A stretch of 64,000 nt of DNA from Candidatus Sulfidibacterium hydrothermale (GTDB taxonomy: Bacteria; Bacteroidota; Bacteroidia; Bacteroidales; F082), in assembly GCF_020149915.1 (NCBI RefSeq), contig NZ_CP083760.1:1674001-1738000 (forward strand), read 5' to 3'. The translations under genes and the position numbers were made by a program. Under the pieces are notes generated by a model, which was not told the origin of the DNA, ran no database searches, and saw nothing but the letters and a program-made list of their open reading frames with translations. Below are positions 6,301 through 36,977 of this stretch, piece by piece (within the stretch, counting starts at the first letter, position 1; the number at the start of each line of letters is the position of its first letter).

Positions 6301-6324
6301 TAATACCGATTGGATTTTAAAATG
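6301..6324. repeat. Solo end of a MITE-like repeat
   Basis: The sequence TAATACCGATTGGATTTTAA and the next four bases match the inverted right end of the hairpin element at 18963-19094 (20 of 23 positions, opposite strand). The rest of that element is not present here. It may be a decayed copy. Confidence 0.35.
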
Positions 6325-6450
6325 TTAAGTATCAGGATTTAATTATTGTTTCTATTTGTTATTTTCTGTGCCTGGAAAATATTTTTTGTTAGGTGTTGTA
6401 TATGATAAAAATGGTATTCTTATCAAGCATGTATGGTAAAACGCAAATAT

Positions 6451-7695: not shown

Positions 7696-7719
7696 GGTTT
7701 AAATGTTTGATATTGCACC

Positions 7720-7727
7720 CAAAAATA
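7720..7727 (-). promoter_or_regulatory. -7 box for the DUF4143 ATPase
   Basis: Reads TAttTTTG on the minus strand, 24 bases before the ATG at 7695. Exact consensus; no clear -33 element. Confidence 0.5.
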
Positions 7728-7748
7728 CGAAAAAATTGGATAAAATGA

Positions 7749-7784
7749 GAATAGTATTCCCAAAATATCGGATAATTTGGGAAT
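7749..7784. promoter_or_regulatory. Nested inverted repeats, candidate operator
   Basis: A 5-1-5 palindrome GAATA-G-TATTC (7749-7759) overlaps a perfect 9-base inverted repeat, ATTCCCAAA (7756-7764) and TTTGGGAAT (7776-7784), with an 11-base spacer. It lies between the two divergent start regions, 22 bases upstream of the ATPase -7 box. No regulator gene is adjacent. Confidence 0.45.
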
Positions 7785-7861
7785 TGTATTCCGAAAAAAT
7801 CCATTTTTTCGCTATTATCCCTTACCATATCTTTTTGCATCTTTGCCGAAAATTTTACTTC

Positions 7862-8935
7862 ATGTATTCGTACGATTATCTTTTTGCTTTTACCCAATCG
7901 GTGTTTGAAAAAATGGGATTGCCGGCGGATGAGGCCCGTCAGGCGGCCGATATTTTGATGCGGGCCGAGTTACGGAATATTTCCACGCACGGACTGGTGC
8001 GGTTGCCCGAATATGTCCGTTTGTGGCAAAATAAACGGATTACCGTTACCCCGAAATTTACTGTGGTTCACGAAACGCCTTCCACAGCCCTGGTGGACGG
8101 CGGAAAAGGATTGGGGCTGGTTACGGCGCCCAAAGCCATGAAACTGGCCATTGAAAAGGCCAAAACAGCCGGTACGGGCTGGGTGGCGGTGCGCAATTCG
8201 TATCATTTCGGAATTGCCGGTTACTATGCCATGAAAGCGCTGGAACAGGATATGATCGGCATTGCCATGACCAATGCCAATCCGCTGGTGGCGCCTACTT
8301 TTGCGAAAAACGGCATGTTGGGGACCAATCCCATTGCCGTGGCTGTTCCGGCAGGCGATGAGCCGCCTTTTGTGGCCGATTTTGCCACTTCGCCTGTCTC
8401 GCGCGGAAAAGTGGACATATATGAAAGTGAAGGAAAAACCGTTCCGGAAGGCCTGCTACAGGATGCCGGCGGAAGTCCGACTGTCGATCCTTCGGCTTTG
8501 CGTAATGGCGGGGCTTTGCGTACGCTGGGTGGCGACACCGATCATGGCGGGCACAAAGGTTTTTGCCTGACATCTATTGTAGATATTTTTTCGGCTGTGT
8601 TTTCCGGTGCCAATTTCGGGCCGACGGTAGTGCCTACCTTGGGTTATGTGAAAGATAAAGCCGGTGCGGAAGATCGCGGTATCGGTCATTTTTTCGGCGC
8701 CATGCGTATTGATGCCTTTCAGCCGGCAGCCGATTTTAAAGCCGGTATGGATGAATGGATACGGGCTTTCCGAAAAGCCGAACCGGTGCCGGGTCGCGAA
8801 CGGGTAATTATTCCCGGTGATCCGGAACGGGAATCGGAAAAGCGAAAAATGACCGAAGGAATTGCTCTCGGTAGTAAAACCGTCAGCGGACTGAAAACGC
8901 TGGCCGAAATGTTTGACTTGCCTTTCGAAGAATAA
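7862..8935 (+). CDS. Ldh/malate dehydrogenase-family NAD(P)-dependent oxidoreductase
   Basis: A 357-residue member of the type 2 malate/L-lactate/ureidoglycolate dehydrogenase family, which oxidises 2-hydroxyacids with NAD(P). Typical motifs are ADILMRAELRNISTHG, RNSYHFGIAGYYA (catalytic His region), NANPLVAPTFAKNGMLGTNP and DHGGHKGFCL. The ATG at 7862 gives the usual family length; the frame can be extended upstream to 7703, but that would run through the promoter region and the inverted repeat. Near-consensus boxes TAtcTTTT and cAtcTTTG lie at about 7828-7845, 16-30 bases before the ATG. It converges with the ABC-F gene 7 bases downstream. Substrate among malate, lactate, sulfolactate or similar cannot be settled. 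Confidence 0.85.
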   Translation: MYSYDYLFAFTQSVFEKMGLPADEARQAADILMRAELRNISTHGLVRLPEYVRLWQNKRITVTPKFTVVHETPSTALVDGGKGLGLVTAPKAMKLAIEKAKTAGTGWVAVRNSYHFGIAGYYAMKALEQDMIGIAMTNANPLVAPTFAKNGMLGTNPIAVAVPAGDEPPFVADFATSPVSRGKVDIYESEGKTVPEGLLQDAGGSPTVDPSALRNGGALRTLGGDTDHGGHKGFCLTSIVDIFSAVFSGANFGPTVVPTLGYVKDKAGAEDRGIGHFFGAMRIDAFQPAADFKAGMDEWIRAFRKAEPVPGRERVIIPGDPERESEKRKMTEGIALGSKTVSGLKTLAEMFDLPFEE

Positions 8936-18355: not shown

Positions 18356-18919
18356 CTATCCCCGTCTGATCCGGCTGAGGGTTTCGGGTGAAATACCGAG
18401 GTAAGAAGCCACGTAATGCAACGGAACTTTGAGTAAAAGGCCGGGATGTTCTTTCATCAGTTCATCATAACGCTCTTTGGCACTAAGTGTTTGCAGAGCG
18501 ATAGAACGTTTTTCCATGATGACGTAATACTGTTCCATGATAACCCGTCCGGTTTGTTGCCATTTCCAGCTTTTGCGATAGAGTGATTCCAGATCTTCTT
18601 TTGAAAGAATATATACCTGCGAATCTTCAATGGCCTGGATGTTTTCAAAAGCCGGTTTCATTTCAATAAAACTCGACATGGCCACGGCAATACTTCCCGG
18701 TCCGAGGAAGTAGGTGGTGGTTTCTTTGCCTTTGATGTTGAAAAACGAACGCATCAGTCCTGAGCGGATAAAAGCCAGCCGGTCGCAAATCAGTCCTTCT
18801 TTGCTGATAAATCCATTTTTGCGGATGGTTTCTTCACGAAAAAGGCGAAAGGCGTCTTCCAGTTCCTGATTGGTGAACGGGGCTGCCGATTTCAACAACT
18901 TGGCCATTTCGGTAAACAT
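18356..18919 (-). CDS. Crp/Fnr-family transcription regulator
   Basis: A 187-residue regulator: residues 20-120 are a cyclic-nucleotide-binding-like barrel and the C-terminus is a winged helix ending in VASYLGISPETLSRIRRG. The recognition helix carries E-T-L-S-R, the E-x-x-S-R pattern by which FNR contacts TTGA half-sites. It has only one cysteine, so it is not an oxygen-sensing iron-sulfur FNR; the effector is unknown. It has its own -7 box at 18940-18947. It sits just downstream of the SCP2/aminotransferase/transketolase operon, whose upstream region contains a TTGA-N6-TCAA palindrome (23895-23908), so it is a good candidate for that operon's regulator. Confidence 0.88.
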   Translation of the reverse strand: MFTEMAKLLKSAAPFTNQELEDAFRLFREETIRKNGFISKEGLICDRLAFIRSGLMRSFFNIKGKETTTYFLGPGSIAVAMSSFIEMKPAFENIQAIEDSQVYILSKEDLESLYRKSWKWQQTGRVIMEQYYVIMEKRSIALQTLSAKERYDELMKEHPGLLLKVPLHYVASYLGISPETLSRIRRG

Positions 18920-18939
18920 GGCTTTCTTTTTTTGAAAGT

Positions 18940-18947
18940 CAAATTTA
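18940..18947 (-). promoter_or_regulatory. -7 box for the Crp/Fnr gene
   Basis: Reads TAaaTTTG on the minus strand, 20 bases before the ATG at 18919. A small palindrome TTTGA-aag-TCAAA (18931-18943) overlaps it and could be an autoregulatory site, though its spacing differs from the FNR type. Confidence 0.5.
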
Positions 18948-18962
18948 CGAATTTTATAGAAT

Positions 18963-19094
18963 CATACCGACTAAGAATCAAAACGCGCTTTTGGTTCATC
19001 CCAATCCCAAAAGTGCTTTGATTTAATATCGGCATTTACCCTTGTAGATTTTAAAATGCCCTTTTAGCGCATTTTAAAATACAATTGGTATCAA
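18963..19094. repeat. MITE-like element with two strong hairpins
   Basis: Hairpin 1 (18976-19023) pairs AATCAAA and GCGCTTTTGG with CCAAAAGTGC and TTTGATT around a 12-base loop. Hairpin 2 (19048-19080) is a perfect 12-base inverted repeat ATTTTAAAATGC/GCATTTTAAAAT with a 9-base loop. The ends ATACCGA and TTGATACC (inverted) are similar, like short terminal inverted repeats. The right end overlaps the stop codon of the SCP2-like gene at 19091. A solo end of the same type lies at 6301-6324. No coding potential. Confidence 0.5.
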
Positions 19095-19861
19095 GTGGTG
19101 AGTGCCTGCACGCGCATCATCAGGTCGTTGAGCTGGGCTGCATATTCGGGCGAACCTTCGATGGACACATAACCTTTGTCCACGCCTTCCACAAATTCGG
19201 CTTCGCGTAACAAAATCTTCAGGGCGGCATCCACGCTGCCGAATTTCATATGTACAAAAGGACGTTTACGCTGATACAATCCTTTCCCCGCCTTGGTTTT
19301 TCCGGCTTTAACCCGCAGATACACGGCAATATCGCTGTCGTTTACCGACAATTGATAAACGCGGTCGGGCTGGTTTTTGGTCCAGGCGGTCATGTCGGGA
19401 TAACCAAAACGGTTGAGCTTGCTGAGTGCCAGGGTAACCATCGAAAGCGCCATTTTTACTTTCAGGTATTTTTTCAAAGGGGCTTTGGGCTTCACATTGG
19501 GCATCATCAGTTTGAGTGAAAGCAGCAGGCTGATGACTTTGAAAAGCAATGCCGGTTTTGTCAGCCCTTTTATTTTAGGCAAAGCGGTGCCGCCTTTTAA
19601 GAAAGTGTTCATTTTTTCCACTGAGCCGAACGAAAAAACGATATCCCCGCTTTCAAAATGGTTCAGGTCGATAGAAAAATTTCCTTTGTCGAAATGCAGC
19701 GTGCATCCCATTGAGCCGGTGTCGGTTTTGGCTTTAAACACTACGGAAGTCTGTACATTGGCAAATTTTTTCGCCAGGGCCGGATGGTCCTGCAGTAAGA
19801 TTTTCATTACCGGAAAAACGGCTTGAAAATAAAGGTTAGCCACCAGAATATCTTTTTCCAT
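19091..19861 (-). CDS. SCP2-like two-domain protein 1
   Basis: A 256-residue protein that I read as two tandem SCP2-like (sterol carrier/lipid-binding) halves joined by a hydrophobic helix (residues 105-125, LLFKVISLLLSLKLMM). The N-half has CTLHFDKGNFSIDLNHFESGDIVFSFGS and a mirrored pattern recurs as VYLRVKAGKTKAGKGLYQRKRP in the C-half. It is paralogous to the first gene of the operon (23080-23841). SCP2 folds bind lipids or long-chain acyl groups in a hydrophobic tunnel. It is the last gene of the operon, 18 bases after the transketolase C-subunit. Its stop codon TGA lies inside the end of a MITE-like element, so the native C-terminus may have been altered. Confidence 0.55.
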   Translation of the reverse strand: MEKDILVANLYFQAVFPVMKILLQDHPALAKKFANVQTSVVFKAKTDTGSMGCTLHFDKGNFSIDLNHFESGDIVFSFGSVEKMNTFLKGGTALPKIKGLTKPALLFKVISLLLSLKLMMPNVKPKAPLKKYLKVKMALSMVTLALSKLNRFGYPDMTAWTKNQPDRVYQLSVNDSDIAVYLRVKAGKTKAGKGLYQRKRPFVHMKFGSVDAALKILLREAEFVEGVDKGYVSIEGSPEYAAQLNDLMMRVQALTT

Positions 19862-19879
19862 ATCGGGTATTTTTACCGG

Positions 19880-20899
19880 TTAAAATTCGTCTTCCCAGTT
19901 TTCGTCTTCTTCAAAATCTTTCTGCATCACTTCCTGTACTTTTTCGATGATGCCGTTGGCGTCGAGTTTGTAGTATGCATACAGGTCTTCGGGATATCCC
20001 ACTTCGGAATAAACATCGGGGAAACCGACTTTGGTGAAAGCGCAGCCTTTTCCGCTTTGCGCGATGACGTCGGCCACGGCGGTGCCGAGTCCGCCTATCA
20101 CGTTGTGTTCTTCAAAAGTGATGATGCGGCGTGTTTCGGTCACGGCTTTCATTACGGCTTCTTCATCCAGCGGTTTGATGGTGTGCATGTTGATAACGCG
20201 GACACTCAGGCCGTGGTTCTTTTTCAGAAAATCGGCAGCTTCGGCGGCCTGCAGCACCGTGATGCCGGTAGCGATGATGGTGATGTCGGTACCTTCGCGA
20301 ACCAACACGGATTTTCCGATTTCAAAACCGTAATCTTCTTTTTGGTAATAATTGGGTTCAAATCCACGGCCGGTACGGATATATACCGGGCCGGGCCAGT
20401 CCACGGCAGCGCGCACGGCATTGGCGGTTTCGATTCCGTCGGCAGGAACAATTACCGTCATGTTCGCAAACGAGCGCATGATGGCAATATCTTCCGTGGC
20501 ATGGTGTGTGGTTCCTGCCGAACCGAACGAAACGCCGCCGTGTGTAGCAATGATTTTGACATTTAAATTCTGATAGCAAATGTCGGTTCGTACCTGCTCC
20601 GCCGCGCGCATAGAAGTAAAAGCGGCCATGGTAGAGACAAACGGCAAAAGGCCTGTGCGTGCCATGCCGGCGGCAATGCCAAACATATTCTGTTCGGCAA
20701 TGCCCACGTTAATGAATCGGTCGGGAAATTTTTCCTGAAAGATTCCGATTTTGGTTGATTTGGCCAGGTCAGCGGAAAGACCGACAATTTCGGGATGCTT
20801 TTCCCCGAGCTCGCACAGTACTCTGCCGTATATCTCGTTTTGTGTCAGTGTGTTCGCGTCGTACACCGTCCATGTTGTGCCTGTTATTTCTTTGCTCAT
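19880..20899 (-). CDS. Transketolase, C-terminal subunit
   Basis: A 339-residue protein holding the pyrimidine-binding and C-terminal domains of a split transketolase. Seen: GLSADLAKSTKIG, FINVGIAEQNMFGIAAGMA with the glutamate that activates thiamine diphosphate, GVSFGSAGTTHHATEDIAIMR, and in the C domain VREGTDITIIATGITV and ITFEEHNVIGGLG. With the N-subunit upstream (27-base gap) it would form an active two-carbon ketol transferase. The order of N then C genes is the usual one. The acidic tail DFEEDENWEDEF is unusual. Embedding between an aminotransferase and lipid-binding-like proteins suggests a dedicated pathway rather than the pentose phosphate cycle (inference). Confidence 0.9.
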   Translation of the reverse strand: MSKEITGTTWTVYDANTLTQNEIYGRVLCELGEKHPEIVGLSADLAKSTKIGIFQEKFPDRFINVGIAEQNMFGIAAGMARTGLLPFVSTMAAFTSMRAAEQVRTDICYQNLNVKIIATHGGVSFGSAGTTHHATEDIAIMRSFANMTVIVPADGIETANAVRAAVDWPGPVYIRTGRGFEPNYYQKEDYGFEIGKSVLVREGTDITIIATGITVLQAAEAADFLKKNHGLSVRVINMHTIKPLDEEAVMKAVTETRRIITFEEHNVIGGLGTAVADVIAQSGKGCAFTKVGFPDVYSEVGYPEDLYAYYKLDANGIIEKVQEVMQKDFEEDENWEDEF

Positions 20900-20926
20900 G
20901 ATTTTTGACTTTGATTAGAGAAACAA

Positions 20927-21775
20927 TTAAATCCCCAGTTTTTCATACACTGCATCAATGGAATGATGGGCTTTTTCGGCCAGTTCCGAATCAAGGCTGC
21001 CGTAATGCCATTGGGTTTTATCTTCCATAAAATCCACACCGTATCCTTTGACCGTTTTGGCGATAATGACCACCGGTTTTTCCGTAGCCTGTTGTGCTTT
21101 TTCAATGGCGTTGGCTACCTGTTGGATGTCGTTCCCGTTGATTTCCAACACATCCCAGCCAAAAGCTTTCCATTTGTCGGATAATGGTTCCAGTCCCATA
21201 ATCTCTTCCACCGGGCCGTCGATCATCTGCATGTTGCGATCCACAAAAACGGTCAGGTTGGTGAGTTTGTAATGAGCGCCGGTCATGGCGGCTTCCCAGT
21301 TGGAACCTTCGTTAAGTTCGCCGTCGCCCACAATGCAGTAGGTACGGAATTTCTTTTCCTGCAAACGGGCGCCAAGGGCCATGCCGGTAGCGATGGGCAG
21401 TCCGTGGCCGAGTGAGCCGGTGGAAGCGTCGCAGCCGGGAATTTTGTTGGCGTCAGGATGCATGCCGAAAGGCGATTTAAACTTGTTGAAATCGTCCAGC
21501 AGTTTTTTGTCGAAGAAACCGCGTTCGGCCAGTACCGGGGCATAAGCAATGGCAGCATGACCTTTGCTCAGCACCAGCCGGTCGCGGTCAGGGGCATCCG
21601 GCTTTTCCGGGTCGATATTCAGGTATTTGAAATAAAGCGTTACCAGAATATCCAGCACGCTGAGTCCGCCGCCGATATGCGCTCCGCCGGCTTTCATGGT
21701 AATTTCTACAATCTCGTGCCGTAATTTCTTGGCCGTTTGCAGCAAATGGTTGTATTCTTCAATGGTGAGTGCCAT
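20927..21775 (-). CDS. Transketolase, N-terminal subunit
   Basis: A 282-residue thiamine diphosphate-binding subunit of a split transketolase. The TPP/Mg motif is GDGELNEGSNWEAAM (about residues 149-163) followed by DRNMQMIDG. AGGAHIGGGLSVLDILVTLYF, LVLSKGHAAIAYAPVL and TGSLGHGLPIATGMA are characteristic. It transfers ketol units together with the C-subunit encoded next. Split transketolases are common in anaerobes and also occur in specialised pathways such as sulfoquinovose breakdown and unusual sugar biosynthesis. It lies 47 bases after the aminotransferase gene. Confidence 0.92.
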   Translation of the reverse strand: MALTIEEYNHLLQTAKKLRHEIVEITMKAGGAHIGGGLSVLDILVTLYFKYLNIDPEKPDAPDRDRLVLSKGHAAIAYAPVLAERGFFDKKLLDDFNKFKSPFGMHPDANKIPGCDASTGSLGHGLPIATGMALGARLQEKKFRTYCIVGDGELNEGSNWEAAMTGAHYKLTNLTVFVDRNMQMIDGPVEEIMGLEPLSDKWKAFGWDVLEINGNDIQQVANAIEKAQQATEKPVVIIAKTVKGYGVDFMEDKTQWHYGSLDSELAEKAHHSIDAVYEKLGI

Positions 21776-21822
21776 AATGTTTTATTTGAATGATTATTCA
21801 ACAGACAATCAGGATTCTTTAA

Positions 21823-23064
21823 TTATTTCCGGTTGTTTTTCACGGCTTTAAAGGCGTCATCAGCTATCTCAAAAGTTTTCTGGATATCTTCTTCCGTCAG
21901 GGCGGCAGAAATAAACCAGTTATGATGCGAAGTGAAATAAGCGCCGCGTTTGGTACACTCGCCGCACCATTCCTGATGCAGCATGAGCGACGGGTCGTCG
22001 GTGAGCCGCAGATAAGGCATAGCCGGATGGCCGGTTACTTTCAGATGAAAACCGTGGTCTTCCGCAATTTTTTGCAATCCGGATGTTAGTTCGCGGCCTT
22101 TTTCAGCCAGCATGGCCGGTACTTCATTTTCTTTCAGTTCCTGAATAGTGGCCAGTGCTGCTGCCATGGGGACGGCCGAAAACCAATAACTTCCGGTATA
22201 AAATACTTTCGATGCCGCTTCTTTCATTTCGTTGGTTCCCACCAGCGCCGAAATGGGATATCCGTTGCCGATGGCTTTACAGAAAGCAACCAAATCGGGC
22301 TTAAAGCCGAAATACTCGTTGCTTCCGCGCACATCAATACGAAAACCGGTGCGCACATCATCCACAATCAGCACGATGCCTTCTTTGTGACAAAGCTGTT
22401 CCACCTTTTTCCAGTATCCCTCGGCCGGCAGAACATTGTCTTCAAAAGTGGGATGATGATAAGGTGTGGCAATGATGCCGGCGATCTGATCCGGATTTTT
22501 CTTTACGAAATCTTCAAGTACTTCGTAATTATTCCATTCGCCGATGAGCATGTTCTCGGCATCTTCGAAGGTGATGCCGGGATGGTCGGGCGACTGGGTC
22601 CAGGGTTGTACACCGTGATAGCCGCCTTTGAGCCGGATAATCTTTTTCCGGCCGGTTTTGGCGCGGGCCACCATCAGGGCGAAAGTGGTGGCATCGTTAC
22701 CGTTTTTGGCAAAAAAGGCCCAGTCGGCAATGGTTACGGTGTCCACCAGCTCTTGTGCCAGTTGTACCATCACCTCTCCGGGAGCTGTAGCACAATTCAC
22801 TTTTTCGCGTTGCATTTCGGCTGCCGATTCCACTACGGGATTGTTGTACCCGAGAATAATGGGGCCGTAGGCACACATGTAATCGATAAATTCGTTGCCG
22901 TCCACATCCCAAAAATGGGCGTCCTGTGCTTTGGAAACGTAAAACGGATAGTCGGACACCGGAATGAGCGGCGCCGGGCTGAAATGGCCGTATATGCCGC
23001 AAGGAATGATTTCGGCTGCTTTTTGAAAAAGCGCTTTTGATTTTTTATAACTGTATGTTTTCAT
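21823..23064 (-). CDS. Class III PLP aminotransferase, GSA-aminomutase-like
   Basis: A 413-residue class III aminotransferase closest in feel to glutamate-1-semialdehyde aminomutase relatives. The PLP lysine lies in LVAFCKAIGNGYPISALVG (about residue 265), the cofactor aspartate in LIVDDVRTGFR, and the substrate-binding G-x-x-P in AEIIPCGIYGHFSPAP. Class III enzymes act on terminal amines, aldehydes or keto acids. It is not hemL by context: no porphyrin gene is near, and it sits between an SCP2-like gene (15-base gap) and a split transketolase. A pathway in which a transketolase product is aminated, or an amino-aldehyde becomes the acceptor, is possible but unproven. Confidence 0.88.
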   Translation of the reverse strand: MKTYSYKKSKALFQKAAEIIPCGIYGHFSPAPLIPVSDYPFYVSKAQDAHFWDVDGNEFIDYMCAYGPIILGYNNPVVESAAEMQREKVNCATAPGEVMVQLAQELVDTVTIADWAFFAKNGNDATTFALMVARAKTGRKKIIRLKGGYHGVQPWTQSPDHPGITFEDAENMLIGEWNNYEVLEDFVKKNPDQIAGIIATPYHHPTFEDNVLPAEGYWKKVEQLCHKEGIVLIVDDVRTGFRIDVRGSNEYFGFKPDLVAFCKAIGNGYPISALVGTNEMKEAASKVFYTGSYWFSAVPMAAALATIQELKENEVPAMLAEKGRELTSGLQKIAEDHGFHLKVTGHPAMPYLRLTDDPSLMLHQEWCGECTKRGAYFTSHHNWFISAALTEEDIQKTFEIADDAFKAVKNNRK

Positions 23065-23079
23065 TGTACTCTGTTTTTT

Positions 23080-23841
23080 TTACGATACATAATGAATAAC
23101 CCGGTCAAGAATTAAATTGATGCCGTCGAGAATGGGGATTTGTCCTTTGATCATCACATCACCCAGTGCGATGGCGGTAAACGGGTCGGATTTTCCATTG
23201 AGAAAATCGTTGGCTACCTGGGGATTTTTCATCAGCATCATGGCATCAGGATGATCTGCTTTTCCTTTTCCGGCAGTGATTTTCCCGCCTTTGATGGTCA
23301 GATAAACATGCGGACCGTCAGGTAACACGCTCATTTGCAGCGTGCCATCGGGCAGATGTGAAGCGGTGTATTTTGCCCGTTCGTCGTACAAGGCAATCTC
23401 GGGAAGGGCAAAAGCAGCAATGGTCAGTGTGAACATGGTGTTCATGCGGATGTAATGGTTGTCAGGCAGAGGAACATTCTCCGGACGCAGGAAATACTCC
23501 AACCGTTCGGTGAGTTTGGTGAACTCATTTTTCAGGAATCCCAGCTGGGTAAATCCTTTTAACGGAACCGGATTGGCTTTGCCGTCAAACATTTTGTTCA
23601 GGTGTTCGCAGGAAGAAAACCACAGGTGTACCTGCGACTTTCGGGCTTTTCCCCTTTCCACCGTGCACCGGCCATTTTCAAAACGAACCCATGCTTTCGG
23701 GCCGTTTTTTACCGTAAACTGAATACAGATTTTCCGGTCTTGTACCAGTGTGCGGGCTTCGTTGTCATAGGCAACCAAATCTTCCAGATTTTTTAAGATG
23801 GCGTAAAGATTGATGCCTGCTTTTATTCTTTGTGCCGACAT
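23080..23841 (-). CDS. SCP2-like two-domain protein 2
   Basis: A 253-residue protein, first gene of the five-gene operon and paralogous to the last one (19091-19861). The N-half contains AWVRFENGRCTVERGKARKS and VHLWFSSCEHLNKMF; the C-half LPDGPHVYLTIKGGKITAGKG and PDAMMLMKNPQVANDFLNGK, which is the SCP2 pattern of a strand pair, an acidic-hydrophobic strand and a helix lining a lipid tunnel. No signal peptide is seen, so it is probably cytoplasmic or membrane-peripheral. Upstream is an FNR-type palindrome and a one-mismatch -7 box (TActTTTA at 23865-23872). Family call from pattern only. Confidence 0.55.
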   Translation of the reverse strand: MSAQRIKAGINLYAILKNLEDLVAYDNEARTLVQDRKICIQFTVKNGPKAWVRFENGRCTVERGKARKSQVHLWFSSCEHLNKMFDGKANPVPLKGFTQLGFLKNEFTKLTERLEYFLRPENVPLPDNHYIRMNTMFTLTIAAFALPEIALYDERAKYTASHLPDGTLQMSVLPDGPHVYLTIKGGKITAGKGKADHPDAMMLMKNPQVANDFLNGKSDPFTAIALGDVMIKGQIPILDGINLILDRVIHYVS

Positions 23842-23890
23842 AAGTTCTGTTTTTAAAATTTGTTTAAAAGTACATTCAAGACATCAAAAG

Positions 23891-23912
23891 TTTCTTGACA
23901 TTTATCAAGAAA
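23891..23912. promoter_or_regulatory. FNR/CRP-type palindrome
   Basis: A perfect 8-base inverted repeat TTTCTTGA / TCAAGAAA with a 6-base spacer; its core TTGA-C-ATTT-A-TCAA matches the FNR consensus TTGAT-N4-ATCAA at 9 of 10 positions. It lies between the SCP2-led operon and the divergent MFS gene. Its centre is about 43 bases upstream of a start site predicted from the box at 23865-23872, which is a class II activator position. Confidence 0.6.
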
Positions 23913-23974
23913 TGAAACAGATAAATGTTTTTCTTTTGAAGAAAGAGAAAAGACTGCCTGAGAAAAACCGGCTG

Positions 23975-24006
23975 TTTGCAAATCGAAAAAAGTATTGTTA
24001 GCTTTG
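23975..24006 (+). promoter_or_regulatory. Full Bacteroidota promoter for the MFS gene
   Basis: -33 TTTG at 23975-23978, a 20-base spacer and -7 TAgcTTTG at 23999-24006: a complete match to the Bacteroidota primary promoter, 49 bases before the ATG at 24056. Confidence 0.75.
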
Positions 24007-24055
24007 AACAGTCAAAATCGGGGAGAGACCGTTTTTTAAATAAAATAAGAACATC

Positions 24056-25354
24056 ATGGCAAAATCTACTTACAAAGTGTACGGATACCGCTGGGTGATC
24101 CTGATTATTTTCATGTTGATTTCATTTGTTATTCAATTGCAGTGGCTGGCCCATGCCGCAGTGGAACGGCCTGCCGAGGTTTTTTACAAAGGACAATTTA
24201 ATCCCGATTCGTTTTTCAACATCGATTTTCTGGCCATGGTGTACATGCTGGTGTATATTGTAATGAGTATTCCGGCATCGTATATCATCGACACTTATGG
24301 TATCCGGAAAGCCATCGGTCTGGGAGCTGTAATTGCCGGAGTTTCTGGATTGCTGAAAGGTTTTTATGCCGATAGTTTTGAGATGGTGGTGATAGCCCAA
24401 ATCGGACTGGCAATTGCCCAGCCTTTTGTGCTGAATGCGGTAACGGCGGTAACGGTGCGCTGGTTTCCGTTGCGGGAAAGAGGACTGGCAGCAGGACTGG
24501 CTATTCTGGCGCAGTATCTCGGTATTATTTTTGCTATGCTGGTGACCCCGGCATTTATCGGTACGCATCCTGGCCGGCCTGATTACGGCAGCGGATTTCC
24601 GCACATGCTGATGACTTACGGTTGGCTAACTTTTGGCGCGGCAGTCGTTACTTTATTGCTGCTGAAAGAGAAACCACCCACACCGCCGGCAGCCGATGAT
24701 TTGGTGCGGCACAGCTTTTTTAAAGGGATTAAACATATTCTGAAACAGCGCGATATGGTACTGATGATTTTTGTGTTTCTTGTAGGATTGGGCATTTTTA
24801 ATGCCATCAGTTCCATGACCGATTCCATTTCGGCCAATCTCGGCGTAAAAGATTCCAACGGACTGATTGGCGGGTTGATGCTGATTGGCGGGGTTTTCGG
24901 TGCGGTGATCATTCCGGCTTTGTCTGATAAATACCGCATGCGCAAGCGGTTTCTGGTTATTTGTACGGTAGGTGCCCTGCCGGGCGTGCTCGGGCTCAGC
25001 CTGACCGGTTACTTTATCCATAATCCGGCGGTGGTGTACGACATTGCCCTGGCCTCGGCTTTTATTCTCGGTTTTTTCATTATGAGTGCCGGTCCGGTAG
25101 GATTTCAATATGCTGCCGAAGTCAGCTATCCTGCGCCGGAATCCATTTCGCAGGGACTGCTGCTCTGGATCGGGCAGATTTCAGGATTGCTTTTTGTGGC
25201 GGGTATGAGCATTAAAAACAACGCCTATCTGAACGACTGGATGATTCTTTTCTGCATTTTGATGCCGGTGGTGATTGCGCTTACGCTGATGACTAAAGAG
25301 TCGCCCATGATTATTACCGAAAAAGATAAAATGAAAGGAGAAATCGGAGGCTAA
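24056..25354 (+). CDS. MFS transporter, divergent from the transketolase operon
   Basis: A 432-residue, 12-segment major facilitator. The loop after helix 2 reads SYIIDTYGIRKAIGLG, the MFS A-motif region, and TVRWFPLRERGLAAGLAILAQYLG is helix 4-5, a pattern seen in FLVCR-like and oxalate/formate-like MFS proteins. A strong promoter precedes it. It is divergently transcribed from the SCP2/aminotransferase/transketolase operon and shares with it the region carrying an FNR-type palindrome, so it may import that pathway's substrate or export its product. The substrate is not readable from sequence. It converges with the 25365-25880 gene 10 bases downstream. Confidence 0.85.
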   Translation: MAKSTYKVYGYRWVILIIFMLISFVIQLQWLAHAAVERPAEVFYKGQFNPDSFFNIDFLAMVYMLVYIVMSIPASYIIDTYGIRKAIGLGAVIAGVSGLLKGFYADSFEMVVIAQIGLAIAQPFVLNAVTAVTVRWFPLRERGLAAGLAILAQYLGIIFAMLVTPAFIGTHPGRPDYGSGFPHMLMTYGWLTFGAAVVTLLLLKEKPPTPPAADDLVRHSFFKGIKHILKQRDMVLMIFVFLVGLGIFNAISSMTDSISANLGVKDSNGLIGGLMLIGGVFGAVIIPALSDKYRMRKRFLVICTVGALPGVLGLSLTGYFIHNPAVVYDIALASAFILGFFIMSAGPVGFQYAAEVSYPAPESISQGLLLWIGQISGLLFVAGMSIKNNAYLNDWMILFCILMPVVIALTLMTKESPMIITEKDKMKGEIGG

Positions 25355-27692: not shown

Positions 27693-27721
27693 ATGTTTTT
27701 ATTTGTGTTTTAATGTTTTTA
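27693..27721 (-). promoter_or_regulatory. Direct repeat upstream of the S24 repressor gene
   Basis: TAAAAACAT occurs twice on the minus strand (27713-27721 and 27693-27701), 20 bases apart, 17-45 bases before the ATG. Two turns of helix apart, they could be an autoregulatory site. The AT-rich context makes chance likely. Confidence 0.25.
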
Positions 27722-27827
27722 CCACGAAAGCGCCCTAAGGATGTTACCAAGGCACACGAAGTATAATTTTTTTCTTTTCCTTTTTTCTTTGTGTTCCTTT
27801 GTGTGTACTTTGTGACCCTTTGTGGTT
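27721..27827. repeat. Hairpin repeat unit 1 (solo)
   Basis: Begins ACCACGAAAG and ends CTTTGTGGTT; the two halves are imperfect reverse complements around a T-rich centre. The right half is identical over 47 bases (27781-27827) to the right half of unit 3 (28370-28416). Confidence 0.8.
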
Positions 27828-27835
27828 CATCTTTT

Positions 27836-27939
27836 ACCACGAAGGCGCTCCAAGGATGTCACCAAGGCGCACGAAGGATAATTTTTCCTTCTTTTTTTCT
27901 TCGCGTTTCTTTGTGTGTGCTTTGTGACCCCTTGTGGTT
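27836..27939. repeat. Hairpin repeat unit 2 (solo)
   Basis: Begins ACCACGAAGG and ends CTTGTGGTT. Pairing blocks ACCAC/GTGGT, GTCAC/GTGAC and CGAAG/CTTCG flank a T-rich loop. Its left half (27836-27879) differs by one base from that of unit 3 (27948-27991). Confidence 0.8.
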
Positions 27940-27947
27940 CATCTTTT

Positions 27948-28416
27948 ACCACGAAGGCGCTCTAAGGATGTCACCAAGGCGCACGAAGGATTAAAGAATT
28001 ACCCGTTTTATACCATCTTTCAAATGTTTTACGTTAAAATTAATTAACAACCCCAAATGACAGTTGGAAAGCTTCAAATAAGTAAGAATTTGTGCCATGT
28101 GAATATCCGCCAGAGCATCTACCGATTTTATTTCAATAATTATTTGATCTTCAACTAGTAAATCCACCCGGTATCCTATTTCAAGTTTCACATCTTCGTA
28201 AACAAGCGGTAATGGTTTTTGTTTTACCACTTTTAATCCTGTTTGTCGAAGTTCATAAAACAGGCATTCCTCGTAAGCACTTTCCAATAACCCAGGCCCA
28301 AGGGCAGAATGTACTTTAAAAGAACAATCCAAAACTGTTTTAAATATTTCTTCTCTGTTCATGGTATTGTTTTTTCTTTGTGTTCCTTTGTGTGTACTTT
28401 GTGACCCTTTGTGGTT
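27948..28416. mobile_element. Hairpin repeat unit 3 carrying a GxxExxY gene in its loop
   Basis: Left half 27948-27991, GxxExxY gene 27991-28362, right half 28370-28416. The gene occupies the place where units 1 and 2 have only a T-rich loop. This is the layout of an element with imperfect terminal inverted repeats and one internal gene, with units 1 and 2 as gene-free derivatives. A fourth partial left end (CACCACGAAGGTGCC) follows at 28434-28448. Mobility is inferred, not shown. Confidence 0.5.
27991..28362 (-). CDS. GxxExxY family protein
   Basis: A 123-residue protein named for its motif, here GLLESAY at residues 24-30. The second half has a PD-(D/E)xK nuclease-like core: D67 in GYRVDLLVE and E77-x-K79 in IIIEIKSV, followed by HMAQILTYLKL and LGLLINFNV. 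Its function is unknown; the fold suggests a nuclease or a nuclease-derived binding protein. The stop codon overlaps the left half of a hairpin repeat and the right half begins 7 bases after the ATG side, so the gene is exactly framed by the repeat. It is on the minus strand, opposite to the polymerase gene that follows. Confidence 0.88.
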   Translation of the reverse strand: MNREEIFKTVLDCSFKVHSALGPGLLESAYEECLFYELRQTGLKVVKQKPLPLVYEDVKLEIGYRVDLLVEDQIIIEIKSVDALADIHMAQILTYLKLSNCHLGLLINFNVKHLKDGIKRVIL

Positions 28417-31716: not shown

Positions 31717-32763
31717 ATGATGAAATTATTTTTTTCCGTTTCTGTTATCCTGTTGTTTTTGTTCCCGTTTTTGCTGCTGAATGCAACAGAACCGGAAGTA
31801 AAGGAAAACAGGCCGTTTATCCGTATCGGATTTTACAATACCGAAAATTACTTTGACCCTTTTACAGATACCTTGTCGGATTATCATGAATTTGATCCTG
31901 GTGGGATCCGTCACTGGGATATGGCGCGTTACCGGATAAAACAGCAACATATTTTTAAAGTGATTGCTGCCATGGGCGGATGGCATGGTATGGATGTAAT
32001 GGCTTTTGCCGAGATAGAAAACCGGTTTGTTTTGGAAGATCTTTTGAAAAATACTCCGTTGCGGCGTGAAGATTATGGGATTGTTCATTTTGAGTCGCCG
32101 GATCATCGTGGTATTGATGTGGGGATGATTTATCGTAAAAATGTTTTTCATCTGTTGTGCTCAGAGGCCATTCCGGTGCGTGATACTGCAGGTAAAATTA
32201 TGCGAACCCGCGATATTTTGTATGTAAAAGGCCGGGTGGGAACCGATACGTTGCATTTATTTATTAACCACTGGCCATCGCGATATGGCGGATTAATGAC
32301 CACGGTTTATAAAAGAATACAGGCCGCAAAAGCATTGATCCGTGTTGTTGATTCGGTGTATCAGCGTCGTCCGGAAGCCCGTATTTTGATTATGGGTGAT
32401 TTTAATGAATCGTTGAAAGACAGTGGTTTACAGCGTGTCTTGCAGGATGCGGACGGGGGCGCGCTTGTTGCGCTTGCTTCGCACGCCGATTTCGGTCTTG
32501 CCGGAGGAACCATTCGCGGCATGTCGGGATGGAGTATCTTCGATCGTTTTTTATGTTCAAAAAATTTATTGAACCCTGCCGGCCGGATGTGGGTGTATGA
32601 CAAAAGCTTTCATATCTTTGATGCAGCGTTTTTGCTCGAAAGAGATAATAAAAATATGGGACAAAAGCCTGATCGCACATATAACGGGTTTGCTTATCAT
32701 GGTGGATTTAGTGATCATCTTCCTGTTTATGTGAATGTTGCTTTTGAAAATCCGGGGAAATGA
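31717..32763 (+). CDS. Exported endonuclease/exonuclease/phosphatase-family protein
   Basis: A 348-residue EEP-fold protein with a signal peptide (MMKLFFSVSVILLFLFPFLL, cleavage near LNA). Metal and catalytic motifs: GFYNTENYFDP, MAFAEIENRFV, FINHWPSRYGG, LIMGDFNESL and FSDHLPVYV, which together give the Asn, Glu, His, Asp-x-Asn and terminal Asp-His of the family. Such exported proteins may cleave nucleic acids or phosphodiesters in the periplasm. An in-frame TTG at 31693 is less likely than the ATG at 31717. Its stop overlaps the ATG of the AsmA-like gene by 4 bases, so the two are translationally coupled. Confidence 0.88.
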   Translation: MMKLFFSVSVILLFLFPFLLLNATEPEVKENRPFIRIGFYNTENYFDPFTDTLSDYHEFDPGGIRHWDMARYRIKQQHIFKVIAAMGGWHGMDVMAFAEIENRFVLEDLLKNTPLRREDYGIVHFESPDHRGIDVGMIYRKNVFHLLCSEAIPVRDTAGKIMRTRDILYVKGRVGTDTLHLFINHWPSRYGGLMTTVYKRIQAAKALIRVVDSVYQRRPEARILIMGDFNESLKDSGLQRVLQDADGGALVALASHADFGLAGGTIRGMSGWSIFDRFLCSKNLLNPAGRMWVYDKSFHIFDAAFLLERDNKNMGQKPDRTYNGFAYHGGFSDHLPVYVNVAFENPGK

Positions 32764-35700
32764 CAAAACGAAAACGGAAAATAATAGCGGTACTGGTATT
32801 TTTGCTGGTCGTAATGCCGGCAGGATTGTATCTGACCCGTAACCAATGGGTGGCTGCTGCTATGAAGTATATCGTTTCCGAACGGTCTCATCGTCAGATT
32901 ACATTGGATTTTCAAAGCATTGATGTCGGGGTTTTTTCCAGAACACTGACCATTGAAAAGCCGGAGCTGCGTTTTGAGCATGTTGTTTTTGATAAAGCGG
33001 CCGGAACATTGTTGAAAAAGGCCATTTTTCACCGTCTTGTCCTGACTAACGTTTCGTTGGGTGATGTTTTGTTGCACCGGCAATTTATTGTGGATAACCT
33101 GTTGCTGGAAAAACCGGAATTTATTTTCGGAATTACCAAAAAACACAAAAAAGTGGCAACTTCTTCTTCTTTTGATCCGTCAGGGTTAATCGAAGCCATG
33201 CAAAATCATCAGATCGGACGTATTCATTTTGGTTTTTTAATCCGTCAGACAGAAATTCATTTTGGAAGAGTTCAGCTGGACGGGAAGAAAAGTGCCGATA
33301 TTTACGGAAATGCCCAATATGATTTTACTATTTGGAATATGGGAACCGTAAAATATGCCGGCGATACACTGCATCCTATTTTTTTCGACAACCTGGAGTT
33401 AACGGTTCGTGATTTCCATCGCTTTTCGGCTCCGGAGAAATTGGATATTGCCCTGGATTCGGCTTTTTATTCAACCAGAAACAGAAAGCTGTTTTTGAGA
33501 GGAATTCATCTGAACCTGTTGGGTGACAATGAAAAAGCAAAGCCGGTCACTTCTATCTTTTTACGTTGGGCTGCCGTGAGCGGATTGCATACCCGGAAAC
33601 AGAAAAAACAAAAAAAATCGTGGTTTAAGCTGGGCTCTTTTAGAGTAGTAGGCGGGCAGGCCGTATTCCGGGAAAAATCATCGTCAAAAAAACAAAAAGA
33701 CAACATGCGCTGGCTGCGTCAGCTTTTTACGGCGTATCATTTGCTTTCGTTGGATACGCTTGATTTACGCCATGTGCATATTTATCATATTGATAAAAAA
33801 GAAGATACGACAATGGAACTCCGGCGTGTCAATATACAGGTAAATGGTTTGTGGGCCGATCGGCGTGTGTTGGCTGAGCCGGTGAGGGAGTTGCATTTTG
33901 ATACGTTGAAATTTTCGTTAAATCATCTTTTGTGGCGCAATATTCCCAACCGGGTGAAGGTAGAAAGTGGTTTGGTTTCCTATAATTCTTCACGTGAACA
34001 ATTACAGGTAAATGACCTGAATGTTCGTACCCGGTGCCCGGCGGAACAAACAAGTCCTGTTTCGGTTTATGGGGCAAAGCAGTTGGTGATCCGTCATTTT
34101 TCGGTGATGCGATGGCAACGCCAAAAACGTCAGTTGCTTGCTTTTGCTTTAGAAGATCCGGATATCCGGGTGATTCGCGACAGCAGCTGCCGGTCGGGAG
34201 AAATCCGTTGGCCGGATGCTTTGGCAACCCTTGTCCCGGAACAGATCGTTATTCACCGCGGAAAAGTTTCTTTCCGGAAAACCGGTTATTTCCATATCAC
34301 AGCATCTGGTCTTGACTTTTTTGCTGACAGCGTACAGGATACCCGTTTTTCTGGTCCCGATGCAGGATTGCATTACGATTCGGTTTATTTCCATGTGCAA
34401 AGAAGCAGCTATACGGATGAAAGAAAAAATATCAGATCCTTTGTACGTGATGTAACCTTTGATAAGAAGTTTTTCCGGCTGAAAGGTATCCGGTATTTCC
34501 GGAATGATTCTGCCGGATATGATTCGCTAAAAGCAGGACAGCTGCTGCTGACCCGTTTTCAGCCGGATTCTTTGCTTTTCCGTCATGTTCTGAAAGCACG
34601 CGGTGCTTATTTGTATCGTGCTGATTTGCATTCTTTCCGGCAGAAAGATGAACAGAATAAAGGTCTGGACAGTTTGGGGCGGCAGACGGGCTCTCCACAA
34701 ATTCCTTTGAAAACCAATATTGGTTATGTGCAGATTCGTAAAAGCAGTTTCTCGCTGGTATCCCGTACACCGGATAAAGATTTTTCCATTCGTAGCCGGG
34801 TAAATCTAAAACTGCATCGTTTTAAAATGGGATACGATACGGCGCATGTTCTTTCGGCTCCCAAAAGCTGGCAGGCCCGTTTTGAGGATACGCGCATGAA
34901 AAGCAATCACCTGACGGTTCAGTGGCAAAAAACGGTTCTTAACAGCGATTCCGGAATCTTGTTCCTGAAAAATGTACAGCTTAACCAGCTTTCTGATTCG
35001 AACCTGCAGTTCCGTATCAGCATTCCGACTGTTTCGTTACAGGGAGTCCGTTATCACCGGCTTTTTTATTCTGACAGCATTGTGTTTGGAAAAGCTGTTT
35101 TTGATTCGCCGAAAGGTATGATCCATTTTATGAGAATGATGTCTGACCGTGATGGAAGTAATTTGCGTCGCTGGAAACTGGTTTTCGACAGTCTGCGTTT
35201 TGTAAATGGAATGCTGGAAATACGAAATGGAGTAAAACAATTCAGTTCGCTTCAGCTTAACGGAATCAACTTGCTTTATCATCCTAATCGGTTGTTGGCT
35301 CTGGTACCGGACAGTAATTTGATAAAACAATGGGATTTTTCCATTAACCGGCTGGTGTTTGTGGGAAAATACCAGAAATTCAGAATGGTAGCTGACCGTA
35401 TTGCGTTACAGTCGGCAACCAGTCGTTTTCATGTGTTAAAAATTATTGGTACGAATTTCTCTCCCGATATGGTTGATCCGTCGAACCGGCAGATGTTTTC
35501 TTATTTCTTCGTGAATAATATGTCTTTTGAGCATATATTTCTTCGGGGAGGAACAACCCGGTTTTTGCATATTAAAAATTGGAATGTTCCGTCGGTATGG
35601 GTTAATATCATTAATAACAACACCGAAAGTAAGAAAAGATCACTTGCTTTTCTGACCAGTGGCTTTTTTAACCGCTACACCCGTTTTGTAGAAGGGGTTC

Positions 35701-36977
35701 ATATTGACAGTACATTTCTCGGAAATGTAAATCTAAGCTATCAGTATGACCGGATGAACAAGCTGGTAAACATTATGAAACTGACCATTCATACCCAGGG
35801 AATCCAGTTGGGAAAACCATTTTTGCCCGATTCTTCCGATGCGTTGTTCCAGAATATGTTCATCAATTTAAAAGATCGTCCGGTGATTAGTGGCGACAGT
35901 ATGTACACATTTCGGATGCGGGATATCCGGATTAATCTTCCGGAGCGAAGAATCCGTTTTGATTCCATTACGCTGACTCCCCGTTTTGACCGGAAAGCGT
36001 TTTTTGCCCGTGCCGGGTATCAAACCGACCGGATAACACTTTATGGAAAAAGTGCTGTAATGGAGCGGTTTAGCCCTGGTGACCTGTTGAATGGCCATTT
36101 TATTCATTTTGGGAAACTGGATTTGAACAACCTGAGTGTCCGGTTTGAAAGAGACATGCATTATCCGCGGCGGAATGTGGTGAAACCGATGCCGATAGAT
36201 GTGCTGAATGCTATTCCGTATAAATTCAGAATTGATACGGTTCAGCTGAACAACAGTATGCTCTCTTATTTCGAATACGAGGTAAAATCAAAAAATCCGG
36301 GGATCTTTTTCATCGATCATTTTAATGTGACTTCGATTAATGTGACCAACCATTTTATGCCGGGTGATTCCAATCTGGTATGGAAGTTCCAGGGCTCAGG
36401 AAAATTGATGAAACAGGCGAATATGGATTTCACCCTGGTGATGCCCTATTTTGCACCGAATCAGCAATGGTGGTTCTCTGCCGAAACCGGAAAAATAGAT
36501 CTTACCCAGTTTAATCCGCTGACCGAAAATGTACTGGGTATTACAGTAAAATCCGGTGTGGGAAGCTTGCAGGTTCCGATGATTACGGGAGATAATTTTT
36601 CGGCTCGCGGCAGTGTGGATTTTCTGTACAAGAAAATGAAACTTCGGTTATACAGCCGGAAGAAATCGCAGCAAAGCCGGAGTGTTTGGAGCCCGTTTGC
36701 TAACCTGATGATTAATGGGATTGTGGTAAAAAATAATAATCCGCCTTTCCTGGGACATGTGAAAAAAGGAATTGTTTATTTTGAACGGGTTCCGCAGAAA
36801 TCGTTTATCAATTATTTGTGGAAAAGTAATCTGAGTGGTATCCTTTCTACCATTGGTTTCAATAATAAACAGCAACGCGAAATGAAACGCGAAGAAAAGA
36901 AACAGACAAAAGCGGCCGGTAAAACCGGAGCAGCAGAGCAAAAGAATCCCAGCCCGAAAAAGAAAGAAAATAACTAA
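32760..36977 (+). CDS. Giant AsmA/YhdP-like envelope protein
   Basis: A 1405-residue protein with one N-terminal membrane helix (residues 7-26, KIIAVLVFLLVVMPAGLYL) followed by a periplasmic body that is almost all beta-strand. Short strands with the pattern 'hydrophobic-D-x-L-x-L' and regularly spaced recurrence (VSLGDVLLHRQFIVDNLLLE, IDTVQLNNSMLSYFEYE) recall AsmA-like bridge proteins, which are thought to form long hydrophobic grooves for phospholipid transfer to the outer membrane. The last 50 residues are basic (KREEKKQTKAAGKTG). It is coupled by a 4-base overlap to an exported EEP protein. AsmA assignment rests on architecture, not on a signature motif. Confidence 0.65.
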   Translation: MTKRKRKIIAVLVFLLVVMPAGLYLTRNQWVAAAMKYIVSERSHRQITLDFQSIDVGVFSRTLTIEKPELRFEHVVFDKAAGTLLKKAIFHRLVLTNVSLGDVLLHRQFIVDNLLLEKPEFIFGITKKHKKVATSSSFDPSGLIEAMQNHQIGRIHFGFLIRQTEIHFGRVQLDGKKSADIYGNAQYDFTIWNMGTVKYAGDTLHPIFFDNLELTVRDFHRFSAPEKLDIALDSAFYSTRNRKLFLRGIHLNLLGDNEKAKPVTSIFLRWAAVSGLHTRKQKKQKKSWFKLGSFRVVGGQAVFREKSSSKKQKDNMRWLRQLFTAYHLLSLDTLDLRHVHIYHIDKKEDTTMELRRVNIQVNGLWADRRVLAEPVRELHFDTLKFSLNHLLWRNIPNRVKVESGLVSYNSSREQLQVNDLNVRTRCPAEQTSPVSVYGAKQLVIRHFSVMRWQRQKRQLLAFALEDPDIRVIRDSSCRSGEIRWPDALATLVPEQIVIHRGKVSFRKTGYFHITASGLDFFADSVQDTRFSGPDAGLHYDSVYFHVQRSSYTDERKNIRSFVRDVTFDKKFFRLKGIRYFRNDSAGYDSLKAGQLLLTRFQPDSLLFRHVLKARGAYLYRADLHSFRQKDEQNKGLDSLGRQTGSPQIPLKTNIGYVQIRKSSFSLVSRTPDKDFSIRSRVNLKLHRFKMGYDTAHVLSAPKSWQARFEDTRMKSNHLTVQWQKTVLNSDSGILFLKNVQLNQLSDSNLQFRISIPTVSLQGVRYHRLFYSDSIVFGKAVFDSPKGMIHFMRMMSDRDGSNLRRWKLVFDSLRFVNGMLEIRNGVKQFSSLQLNGINLLYHPNRLLALVPDSNLIKQWDFSINRLVFVGKYQKFRMVADRIALQSATSRFHVLKIIGTNFSPDMVDPSNRQMFSYFFVNNMSFEHIFLRGGTTRFLHIKNWNVPSVWVNIINNNTESKKRSLAFLTSGFFNRYTRFVEGVHIDSTFLGNVNLSYQYDRMNKLVNIMKLTIHTQGIQLGKPFLPDSSDALFQNMFINLKDRPVISGDSMYTFRMRDIRINLPERRIRFDSITLTPRFDRKAFFARAGYQTDRITLYGKSAVMERFSPGDLLNGHFIHFGKLDLNNLSVRFERDMHYPRRNVVKPMPIDVLNAIPYKFRIDTVQLNNSMLSYFEYEVKSKNPGIFFIDHFNVTSINVTNHFMPGDSNLVWKFQGSGKLMKQANMDFTLVMPYFAPNQQWWFSAETGKIDLTQFNPLTENVLGITVKSGVGSLQVPMITGDNFSARGSVDFLYKKMKLRLYSRKKSQQSRSVWSPFANLMINGIVVKNNNPPFLGHVKKGIVYFERVPQKSFINYLWKSNLSGILSTIGFNNKQQREMKREEKKQTKAAGKTGAAEQKNPSPKKKENN

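Follow-up and report, generated by a model that had tools for sequence, protein, structure and literature searches.

Two tandem SCP2-like proteins, an aminotransferase and a split transketolase: a conserved five-gene set with a possible role in sphingoid-base breakdown

What would an aminotransferase, a transketolase that is split over two genes, and two proteins of a lipid-carrier fold be doing together in one operon? The question is raised by a stretch of 64,000 nucleotides from the genome of Candidatus Sulfidibacterium hydrothermale (assembly GCF_020149915.1, contig NZ_CP083760.1, positions 1,674,001 to 1,738,000 of the forward strand), a stretch which is here called the window and in which such a five-gene core lies at 19091-23841 on the minus strand. 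The five-gene set is a real and conserved system, beyond chance. What it does is put forward less firmly, that is, with equal prospects of being right or wrong: the operon may be a breakdown pathway for a long-chain 2-amino-1,3-diol, likeliest a free sphingoid base (e.g., sphinganine or sphingosine) or something bacterial that closely resembles one. What its substrate and acceptor are, in which order the steps come, and which way the pathway runs we infer from sequences and predicted structures. The core genes, along with the short names used here, are as follows:

23080-23841, minus strand: SCP2A, predicted tandem SCP2-fold protein, which travels with AT (Pfam SCP2, 41.6 bits, 1.7e-10)
21823-23064, minus strand: AT, class III aminotransferase, fumonisin-aminotransferase-like (Pfam Aminotran_3 above cut-off)
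20927-21775, minus strand: TK-N, thiamine diphosphate (ThDP)-binding half of a split transketolase (Pfam Transketolase_N above cut-off)
19880-20899, minus strand: TK-C, second half of the split transketolase (TK) (Pfam Transket_pyr and Transketolase_C above cut-off)
19091-19861, minus strand: SCP2B, predicted tandem SCP2-fold protein, which travels with TK (Pfam SCP2 at 17 versus a cut-off of 21.3)

Read from SCP2B to SCP2A, the intergenic gaps are of 18, 27, 47, and 15 bases. Open reading frame (ORF) coordinates and Pfam matches thereby bear out what a preliminary description, made from the letters alone, had noted, i.e., a tightly spaced minus-strand set of five genes with SCP2-like genes at both ends. 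The genome is a single contig of 3.27 Mb. As it carries elsewhere a separate full-length transketolase gene and a DXS-like gene (both labelled by eye), the split transketolase is an additional one.

Is the arrangement kept beyond this one genome? Genome contigs were searched with AT alone, giving at least 576 relatives; the top 80 were retained and are the 80 loci referred to below, with genes called in them using profile hidden Markov models of all five proteins. The order SCP2A-AT-TKN-TKC-SCP2B, all on one strand, is found in 61 of the 80. Another 12 are consistent with that order but are cut by a contig end (L012, L023, L027, L029, L032, L050, L059, L062, and L074-L077), and seven depart from it (L018, L019, L020, L021, L037, L068, and L071), the line between cut and departing loci being a reading of coordinates against contig ends. 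The transketolase halves are joined in a single ORF (602 or 610 aa) in L057 and L060. An apparent transketolase half in L018/L170 was excluded from the family, it being a 214-aa antisense ORF with 26% identity and 53 bits. Eleven phylum names occur across the 80 loci, as taken from record titles, i.e., of bins which can be mislabelled. A tree of the AT sequences needs 16 changes of phylum label versus a minimum of 10, and inheritance thus seems to have been mostly within phyla, with some mixing.

Closer to the window the set is sparse. When 40 genomes related to that of the window were scanned, five gave an SCP2 match (one of these, G003, being weak and partial only), and a sample of 296 from its phylum (Bacteroidota, as judged by titles of the nearest loci) gave one, which is the window genome itself. 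Contigs L010 and L011 come from two genomes of the same genus, and none of eight genes flanking the operon in the window was found on them; the operon therefore seems to sit at different sites.

Which of the five genes belong with which? Genomes in which the set is split suggest the answer. In the spirochaete genomes of L020, L021, and L023, the transketolase half of the set sits with SCP2B at a second locus. Within a sample of 297 genomes of Desulfobacterota (the phylum of G336, by locus titles), SCP2A adjoins AT in 13, with TKN-TKC-SCP2B found on a separate contig in some of them (e.g., L143/L153 and L145/L152). SCP2A therefore goes with AT and SCP2B with the transketolase, that is, there is a lipid-fold partner for each of the two enzymes, and partner and enzyme may be in direct contact. 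Transketolases of this family (at least 575 bits) are present in ten of those 13 SCP2A-AT genomes and in two genomes with SCP2B only (G571 and G470), as compared with none of 20 control genomes, which were the first 20 listed from the Desulfobacterota sample that lack an SCP2 match. SCP2A-AT occurs unaccompanied by a transketolase of this family in G336, G406, G631, and G335. AT-like matches, with E up to 1e-100, are found in three of the 20 controls. An apparent fusion of SCP2A with AT in L151 was rejected, the two matches falling in different frames.

Are these truly lipid-carrier folds? AlphaFold2 models have a mean pLDDT of 92 (SCP2A) and 94 (SCP2B), and the same succession of helices and strands is seen, by our own reading of the models, in both halves of each protein. 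Foldseek matches the models with UbiJ, sterol carrier proteins (SCP2), and alkylsulfatases, and whole-chain TM-scores are low, 0.25-0.36, which we read as a single-domain match that covers one of two halves. SCP2A and SCP2B are, as modelled, predicted tandem SCP2 folds. SCP2 folds bind many hydrophobic ligands, and the SCP2 units of UbiJ (ubiquinone synthesis) and of the alkylsulfatases SdsA1/Pisa1 presumably serve enzymes with greasy substrates. Those proteins share the fold but have a single SCP2 unit or a fused domain, whereas here each enzyme comes with a separate, tandem protein. The preliminary description had proposed a dedicated, perhaps lipid-linked pathway, to be checked via co-occurrence across genomes and via structure prediction of both SCP2-like proteins, and to fall if the genes did not stay together in relatives or if the proteins lacked the fold. 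Neither is the case, since the five genes are together in those 61 loci and both proteins show a predicted SCP2 fold, and that proposal is to this extent strengthened.

The aminotransferase provides the first indication of what sort of substrate might be involved. The closest solved relative of AT is the aminopentol (fumonisin) aminotransferase 6hbs, at 352 bits, followed by a glutamate-semialdehyde aminomutase at 173; with a profile of the family, 6hbs scores 425 bits versus 229 for the next. AT thus is a FumI-like class III enzyme, i.e., it falls within the Aminotran_3 family and nearer to 6hbs than to aminomutases. FumI (6hbs/6hbv) is likewise of class III and acts on a long-chain amine: as part of a fusion enzyme, and in a buffer with pyridoxal phosphate (PLP) and pyruvate, it converts hydrolysed fumonisin B1 (HFB1) to 2-keto-HFB1, according to the accessible text of PMC9025740. 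Fumonisins are described as sphinganine-analogue mycotoxins (accessible text of PMC7711896). FumI differs in being a mycotoxin detoxification enzyme, for which the accessible text of PMC9025740 names neither a transketolase nor an SCP2 protein as partner, and its profile score of 425 bits lies below those of SCP2A-paired ATs (555-799 bits). A second group of fumonisin-aminotransferase-like proteins (447-490 bits; L166, L167, L168, and L169) is found in Desulfobacterota, with no match to the SCP2 or transketolase core within the stretches fetched.

The split transketolase provides the second indication. Its best solved matches are the two chains of the Carboxydothermus hydrogenoformans transketolase, 6yak with TK-N (279 bits) and 6yaj with TK-C (284 bits), that enzyme similarly being of two chains. 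The alignments used (A1-A5) hold 49 of 67, 43 of 51, 30 of 77, 24 of 56, and 23 of 55 ORFs, respectively, as lay inside length limits, plus in each case the window sequence. Upon alignment with human transketolase, residues binding ThDP and the ketol, including the catalytic Glu, are invariant over 25 N-half and 24 C-half sequences; H33, H73, and H257 of TK-N are found in 25 of 25 and H106 too is invariant. In human numbering these residues are H37, H77, H110, H258, and E366.

What has changed is the acceptor side. Among 79 distinct TK-C sequences (those above 350 bits, with L172 excluded), the position of human D424, which is A128 in the window, is Ala in 76, Gly in three, and Asp in none, so that this family lacks the acceptor alpha-hydroxyl Asp of ordinary transketolases. 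We take human D424 to be equivalent to D469 of Escherichia coli and D477 of yeast, and take this Asp to read the acceptor's hydroxyl. Other half-length relatives keep the Asp in five of six cases (L173-L177), the closest of them (L172, 433 bits) having Gly, and full-length transketolase or DXS-like sequences keep it in 11 of 11; the remaining rows of the TK-C set are one 2-oxoacid-dehydrogenase-like protein and badly aligned fragments. The substitutions D469E, D469T, and D477E boost activity with aliphatic aldehydes, and the accessible text of PMC5573996 and PMC6310800 describes no Ala variant at that position. The C. hydrogenoformans enzyme retains the Asp, within the motif GEDG, and its chain ends before the acidic C-terminal tail that distinguishes TK-C. 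This tail ends WEDEF in the window, has F329, E330, W335, D337, and E338 invariant in 24 of 24, and over the 79 sequences reads WxDE in 74, WED- in two, and a gap in three; it may be a docking peptide. The sister split transketolase of L172 (5109-6972, 433 bits) reads GNGG at the GEDG motif, lacks the acidic tail, and adjoins a gene that starts, by eye, like a zinc alcohol dehydrogenase; perhaps this is another unusual transketolase pathway.

Might the substrate nonetheless be hydrophilic? The preliminary description had favoured an amino-sugar or amino-polyol, in which case the SCP2 folds would be merely structural or scaffold subunits. Three phosphate-site residues, S48, H120, and R178, are invariant in 24 of 24 sequences, and AT scores well with models of glutamate-1-semialdehyde aminomutase. 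These three residues presumably correspond to human S345, H416, and R474 which, together with R318, presumably are sugar-phosphate ligands. Yet the R318 position is Arg in just 14 of 79 sequences, being replaced in 65, the sugar-hydroxyl Asp is lost in all 79, AT is far nearer to the fumonisin aminotransferase than to aminomutases, and an SCP2 protein goes with each enzyme. The evidence in sum favours a long-chain 2-amino-1,3-diol, i.e., a sphingoid-like lipid, and an amino-sugar or amino-polyol pathway appears quite improbable.

How might the five proteins then act on such a lipid? SCP2A would hold the water-insoluble amine for AT, which would use pyruvate as amino acceptor, so that alanine is formed and a 1,3-dihydroxy-2-ketone is left. 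The head of this ketone, CH2OH-CO-CHOH, would be that of the normal transketolase donor, and SCP2B would hold the ketone for the split transketolase. The latter would cut the bond between C2 and C3; an aldose phosphate from the pentose phosphate pathway would receive the two-carbon ketol, and a long-chain aldehyde would be freed, which an aldehyde dehydrogenase or aldehyde:ferredoxin oxidoreductase would convert to fatty acid, while alanine dehydrogenase would regenerate pyruvate. Because a single ketone intermediate would join AT with the transketolase, the presence together of two otherwise unrelated enzymes and two lipid carriers would be explained.

The same chemistry could instead serve some other amino lipid, such as a serinol-type lipid, a sulfonolipid base (capnine-like), a 1-deoxysphingoid, or an amino-polyol hopanoid. 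The breadth of hydrophobic ligands that SCP2 folds presumably accept would permit this, and hydrolysed fumonisin, the substrate of AT's characterised relative, presumably is itself a 1-deoxy-type base. The transketolase, though, keeps residues which we take to be binders of a C1 hydroxyl, a group that a sulfonate or methyl head would lack, and hosts include Bacillota, in which hopanoids presumably are uncommon. Another amino lipid is thus considered unlikely.

How does the proposed sphingoid-base pathway compare with what is known? The sphingosine-1-phosphate lyase pathway likewise turns a sphingoid base into a long-chain aldehyde, but does so by way of a kinase and then a PLP lyase, yielding phosphoethanolamine. 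The route proposed here would, unlike that one, require no ATP-dependent phosphorylation, and neither that kinase nor that lyase is present among the neighbours scanned, no genome-wide search having been made. The sulfo-transketolase and apulose-phosphate transketolase pathways similarly have a dedicated transketolase strip off a two-carbon ketol and free an unusual aldehyde, but from polar sugar substrates and with neither an aminotransferase nor a lipid carrier; the isomerase that presumably feeds the transketolase in pathways of that type is not found in the five-gene core. Rif15, of rifamycin biosynthesis, is a two-subunit transketolase with a bulky non-sugar partner, as proposed here, but it places its two-carbon unit onto an antibiotic, via a C-O bond, and no SCP2 or aminotransferase partner is mentioned in the accessible text of PMC6002545. 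The enzymes, that is, are of known families, and the pathway matches no described kind within reach of the literature searched: no description of the gene set or pathway was found in full-text literature (subscription papers not covered), in agreement with the preliminary description, which knew of no such system.

In which direction would the pathway run? Genes near the core, from clusters in the 80 loci with every member verified by Pfam, bear on this point. Alanine dehydrogenase is found in eight of the 80 loci, three within 42 bases and six within 1.4 kb, as well as by the transketolase module in L152 (by Pfam) and L153 (by eye). Aldehyde dehydrogenase is found in nine, five within 0.8 kb; the one of these tested, from L026, resembles class 3 enzymes, its best match being 6k0z (455 bits, annotated only as aldehyde dehydrogenase), with fatty aldehyde dehydrogenase 4qgk at 423. 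Aldehyde:ferredoxin oxidoreductase adjoins the transketolase module in L108 (by Pfam) and L109 (a near-identical start, by eye). All three enzymes fit alanine recycling and aldehyde oxidation, i.e., breakdown. Flavin ene-reductases of the old-yellow-enzyme type occur in seven loci, in one of these 7.7 kb away, and all eight proteins of that cluster match Oxidored_FMN, being of 750-756 aa (L073, L078, L081, L089) or of 365-412 aa. That of L073 matches 2,4-dienoyl-CoA reductase as well as NCR, which presumably is a reductase of the enoate type; such enzymes could reduce a 2-enal derived from sphingosine. VOC proteins (glyoxalase fold) occur in 12 loci, ten of them within 0.4 kb, these lying downstream of SCP2B (L033, L038, L040, L042, L063, L066, L073, L078, L081, L089) in Bacillota and Spirochaetota plus one further bin. 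TetR genes are present in 26 loci. Near the aldehyde:ferredoxin oxidoreductase and transketolase module of L108 and L109 there is also a second class III aminotransferase (L108:11298-12686 and L109:5520-6911), which is distinct from AT (107-114 bits).

Synthesis is the opposite possibility, with the transketolase adding the ketol of a sugar phosphate to a fatty aldehyde and AT then aminating the resulting 1,3-dihydroxy-2-ketone, a route to a sphingoid-like base that would be independent of serine palmitoyltransferase. Aminotransferases presumably are reversible. Transketolase is described as reversible too, and variants at the D424-equivalent Asp convert aliphatic aldehydes (accessible text of PMC5573996 and PMC6310800). 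The usual direction of transketolase, moreover, sets a 3S centre, which as worked out by hand suits making a threo-type base better than it does the use of natural sphinganine. But the dehydrogenases and oxidoreductase just described, which are neighbours of the core in part of the loci, fit the removal of alanine and aldehyde, and the sparse occurrence of the operon (one of 296; five of 40) at sites which differ within a genus looks accessory, unlike membrane-lipid synthesis. Synthesis therefore is judged rather unlikely, and where the preliminary description had left open whether the pathway makes or breaks its compound, evidence now points to breakdown.

That breakdown of a sphingoid base is what these genes accomplish has also to be weighed against a number of contrary points. 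C3 of sphinganine is 3R and that of the usual transketolase donor is 3S, as worked out by hand, so that the transketolase would need either the opposite C3 preference or an epimerase; VOC proteins might, as speculation, epimerise the ketone intermediate. Three of the four presumed phosphate ligands are kept, leaving room for an ordinary sugar-phosphate donor. Three of the 13 Desulfobacterota SCP2A-AT genomes, and G335 in addition, show no transketolase of the family, though some may be incomplete, and the AT relative of one control genome (G340, 637 bits) falls inside the score range of SCP2A-paired ATs. The neighbour counts stand without a background rate, related loci are not independent, and of the nine aldehyde dehydrogenases four, at a distance of 5-6 kb, come from Desulfoluna, i.e., from a single lineage. 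Neutral ceramidase (PF04734), furthermore, is absent from the window genome and from 19 relatives of its genus or family. More broadly, PF04734 is commoner in module genomes, which are those with an A1 match of at least 60 bits (15 of 33 matching genomes in a first phylum sample and 27 of 33 in a second, weaker SCP2 matches being excluded): six of 15 versus ten of 282 others in the first sample, and 11 of 27 versus 31 of 269 in the second. In that second sample, however, the unrelated control GH18 is more enriched still (25 of 27 versus 105 of 269), and among GH18-positive genomes PF04734 is found in ten of 25 versus 24 of 105 (p 0.07). Ceramidase co-occurrence was rejected as proof of sphingolipid use, and because of the stronger enrichment of GH18 it is retained as weak support only.

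With those points counted, the fuller proposition, i.e., that of a widespread and so far undescribed phosphorylation-free sphingoid-base route consisting of transamination and transketolase cleavage, through which the head group would directly supply the pentose phosphate pathway, each enzyme being served by a tandem SCP2 carrier of its own, is offered tentatively, as somewhat short of an even prospect. Were it true, then transketolase, a textbook sugar enzyme, would also cleave the backbones of membrane lipids, and bacteria would be using sphingolipids without ATP-dependent phosphorylation to sphingosine-1-phosphate. A function would also be at hand for five genes whose hosts carry 11 phylum names, SCP2 proteins would be acting as enzyme-specific presenters of lipids, and an aminotransferase and a transketolase would become available as catalysts for long-chain substrates.

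What, lastly, of the regulated locus with transporter of the preliminary description? The remaining features of the locus are these:

18356-18919, minus strand: Crp/Fnr-type regulator, 171 bases downstream of SCP2B (Pfam cNMP_binding, 4.1e-12)
24056-25354, plus strand: MFS transporter, divergent and accessory (Pfam MFS_1, 4.2e-29)
23891-23912, no strand: palindrome TTTCTTGA-N6-TCAAGAAA, a candidate Crp/Fnr operator in the gap between SCP2A and MFS

The regulator and transporter genes are indeed present but lie outside of the conserved core. Crp is found near the core in seven of the 80 loci, all with Bacteroidota titles, and MFS in one (L011), and both were rejected as core parts as they are confined to Bacteroidota loci. 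Crp adjoins the operon in L010 and L011, and MFS does so in L011, with 89% identity to the window's MFS and in the same position; MFS in L010 cannot be judged since that contig ends 0.2 kb upstream of SCP2A.

Within Bacteroidota, the Crp/Fnr-type protein probably regulates the operon. The palindrome TTTCTTGA-N6-TCAAGAAA, allowing two or fewer mismatches, has its sole match in the window at this position, with 0.09 expected, and three Crp-bearing loci have it too, about as far upstream of SCP2A as here: L010 and L011 with perfect arms, and L014 with one mismatch. It was not found upstream of SCP2A in L012, L013, L016, or L025, of which L012, L016, and L025 bear Crp; a poorer palindrome is all that is seen in L015, which bears Crp as well. 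Because a perfect palindrome with 8-base arms, of any sequence, arises in 189 of 5000 shuffles of the SCP2A-MFS gap, it is the recurrence of the palindrome rather than its existence which is evidence. In L035, which has TetR-type genes in the locus, a different perfect palindrome, AAAAGTGAGTAAGTGCTCACTTTT, lies about 165 bases upstream of SCP2A and is a candidate TetR operator.

Elsewhere in the window there is a 112-base tandem repeat of 2.4 copies at 27717-27991, adjoining a small ORF (27991-28362), and a 1405-aa ORF at 32760-36977 with no Pfam match at 1e-5. The 2-kb step of lowest GC in the window (33%, at 6001-8000) lies over an AAA/DUF4143 gene (6451-7695), which perhaps was acquired.

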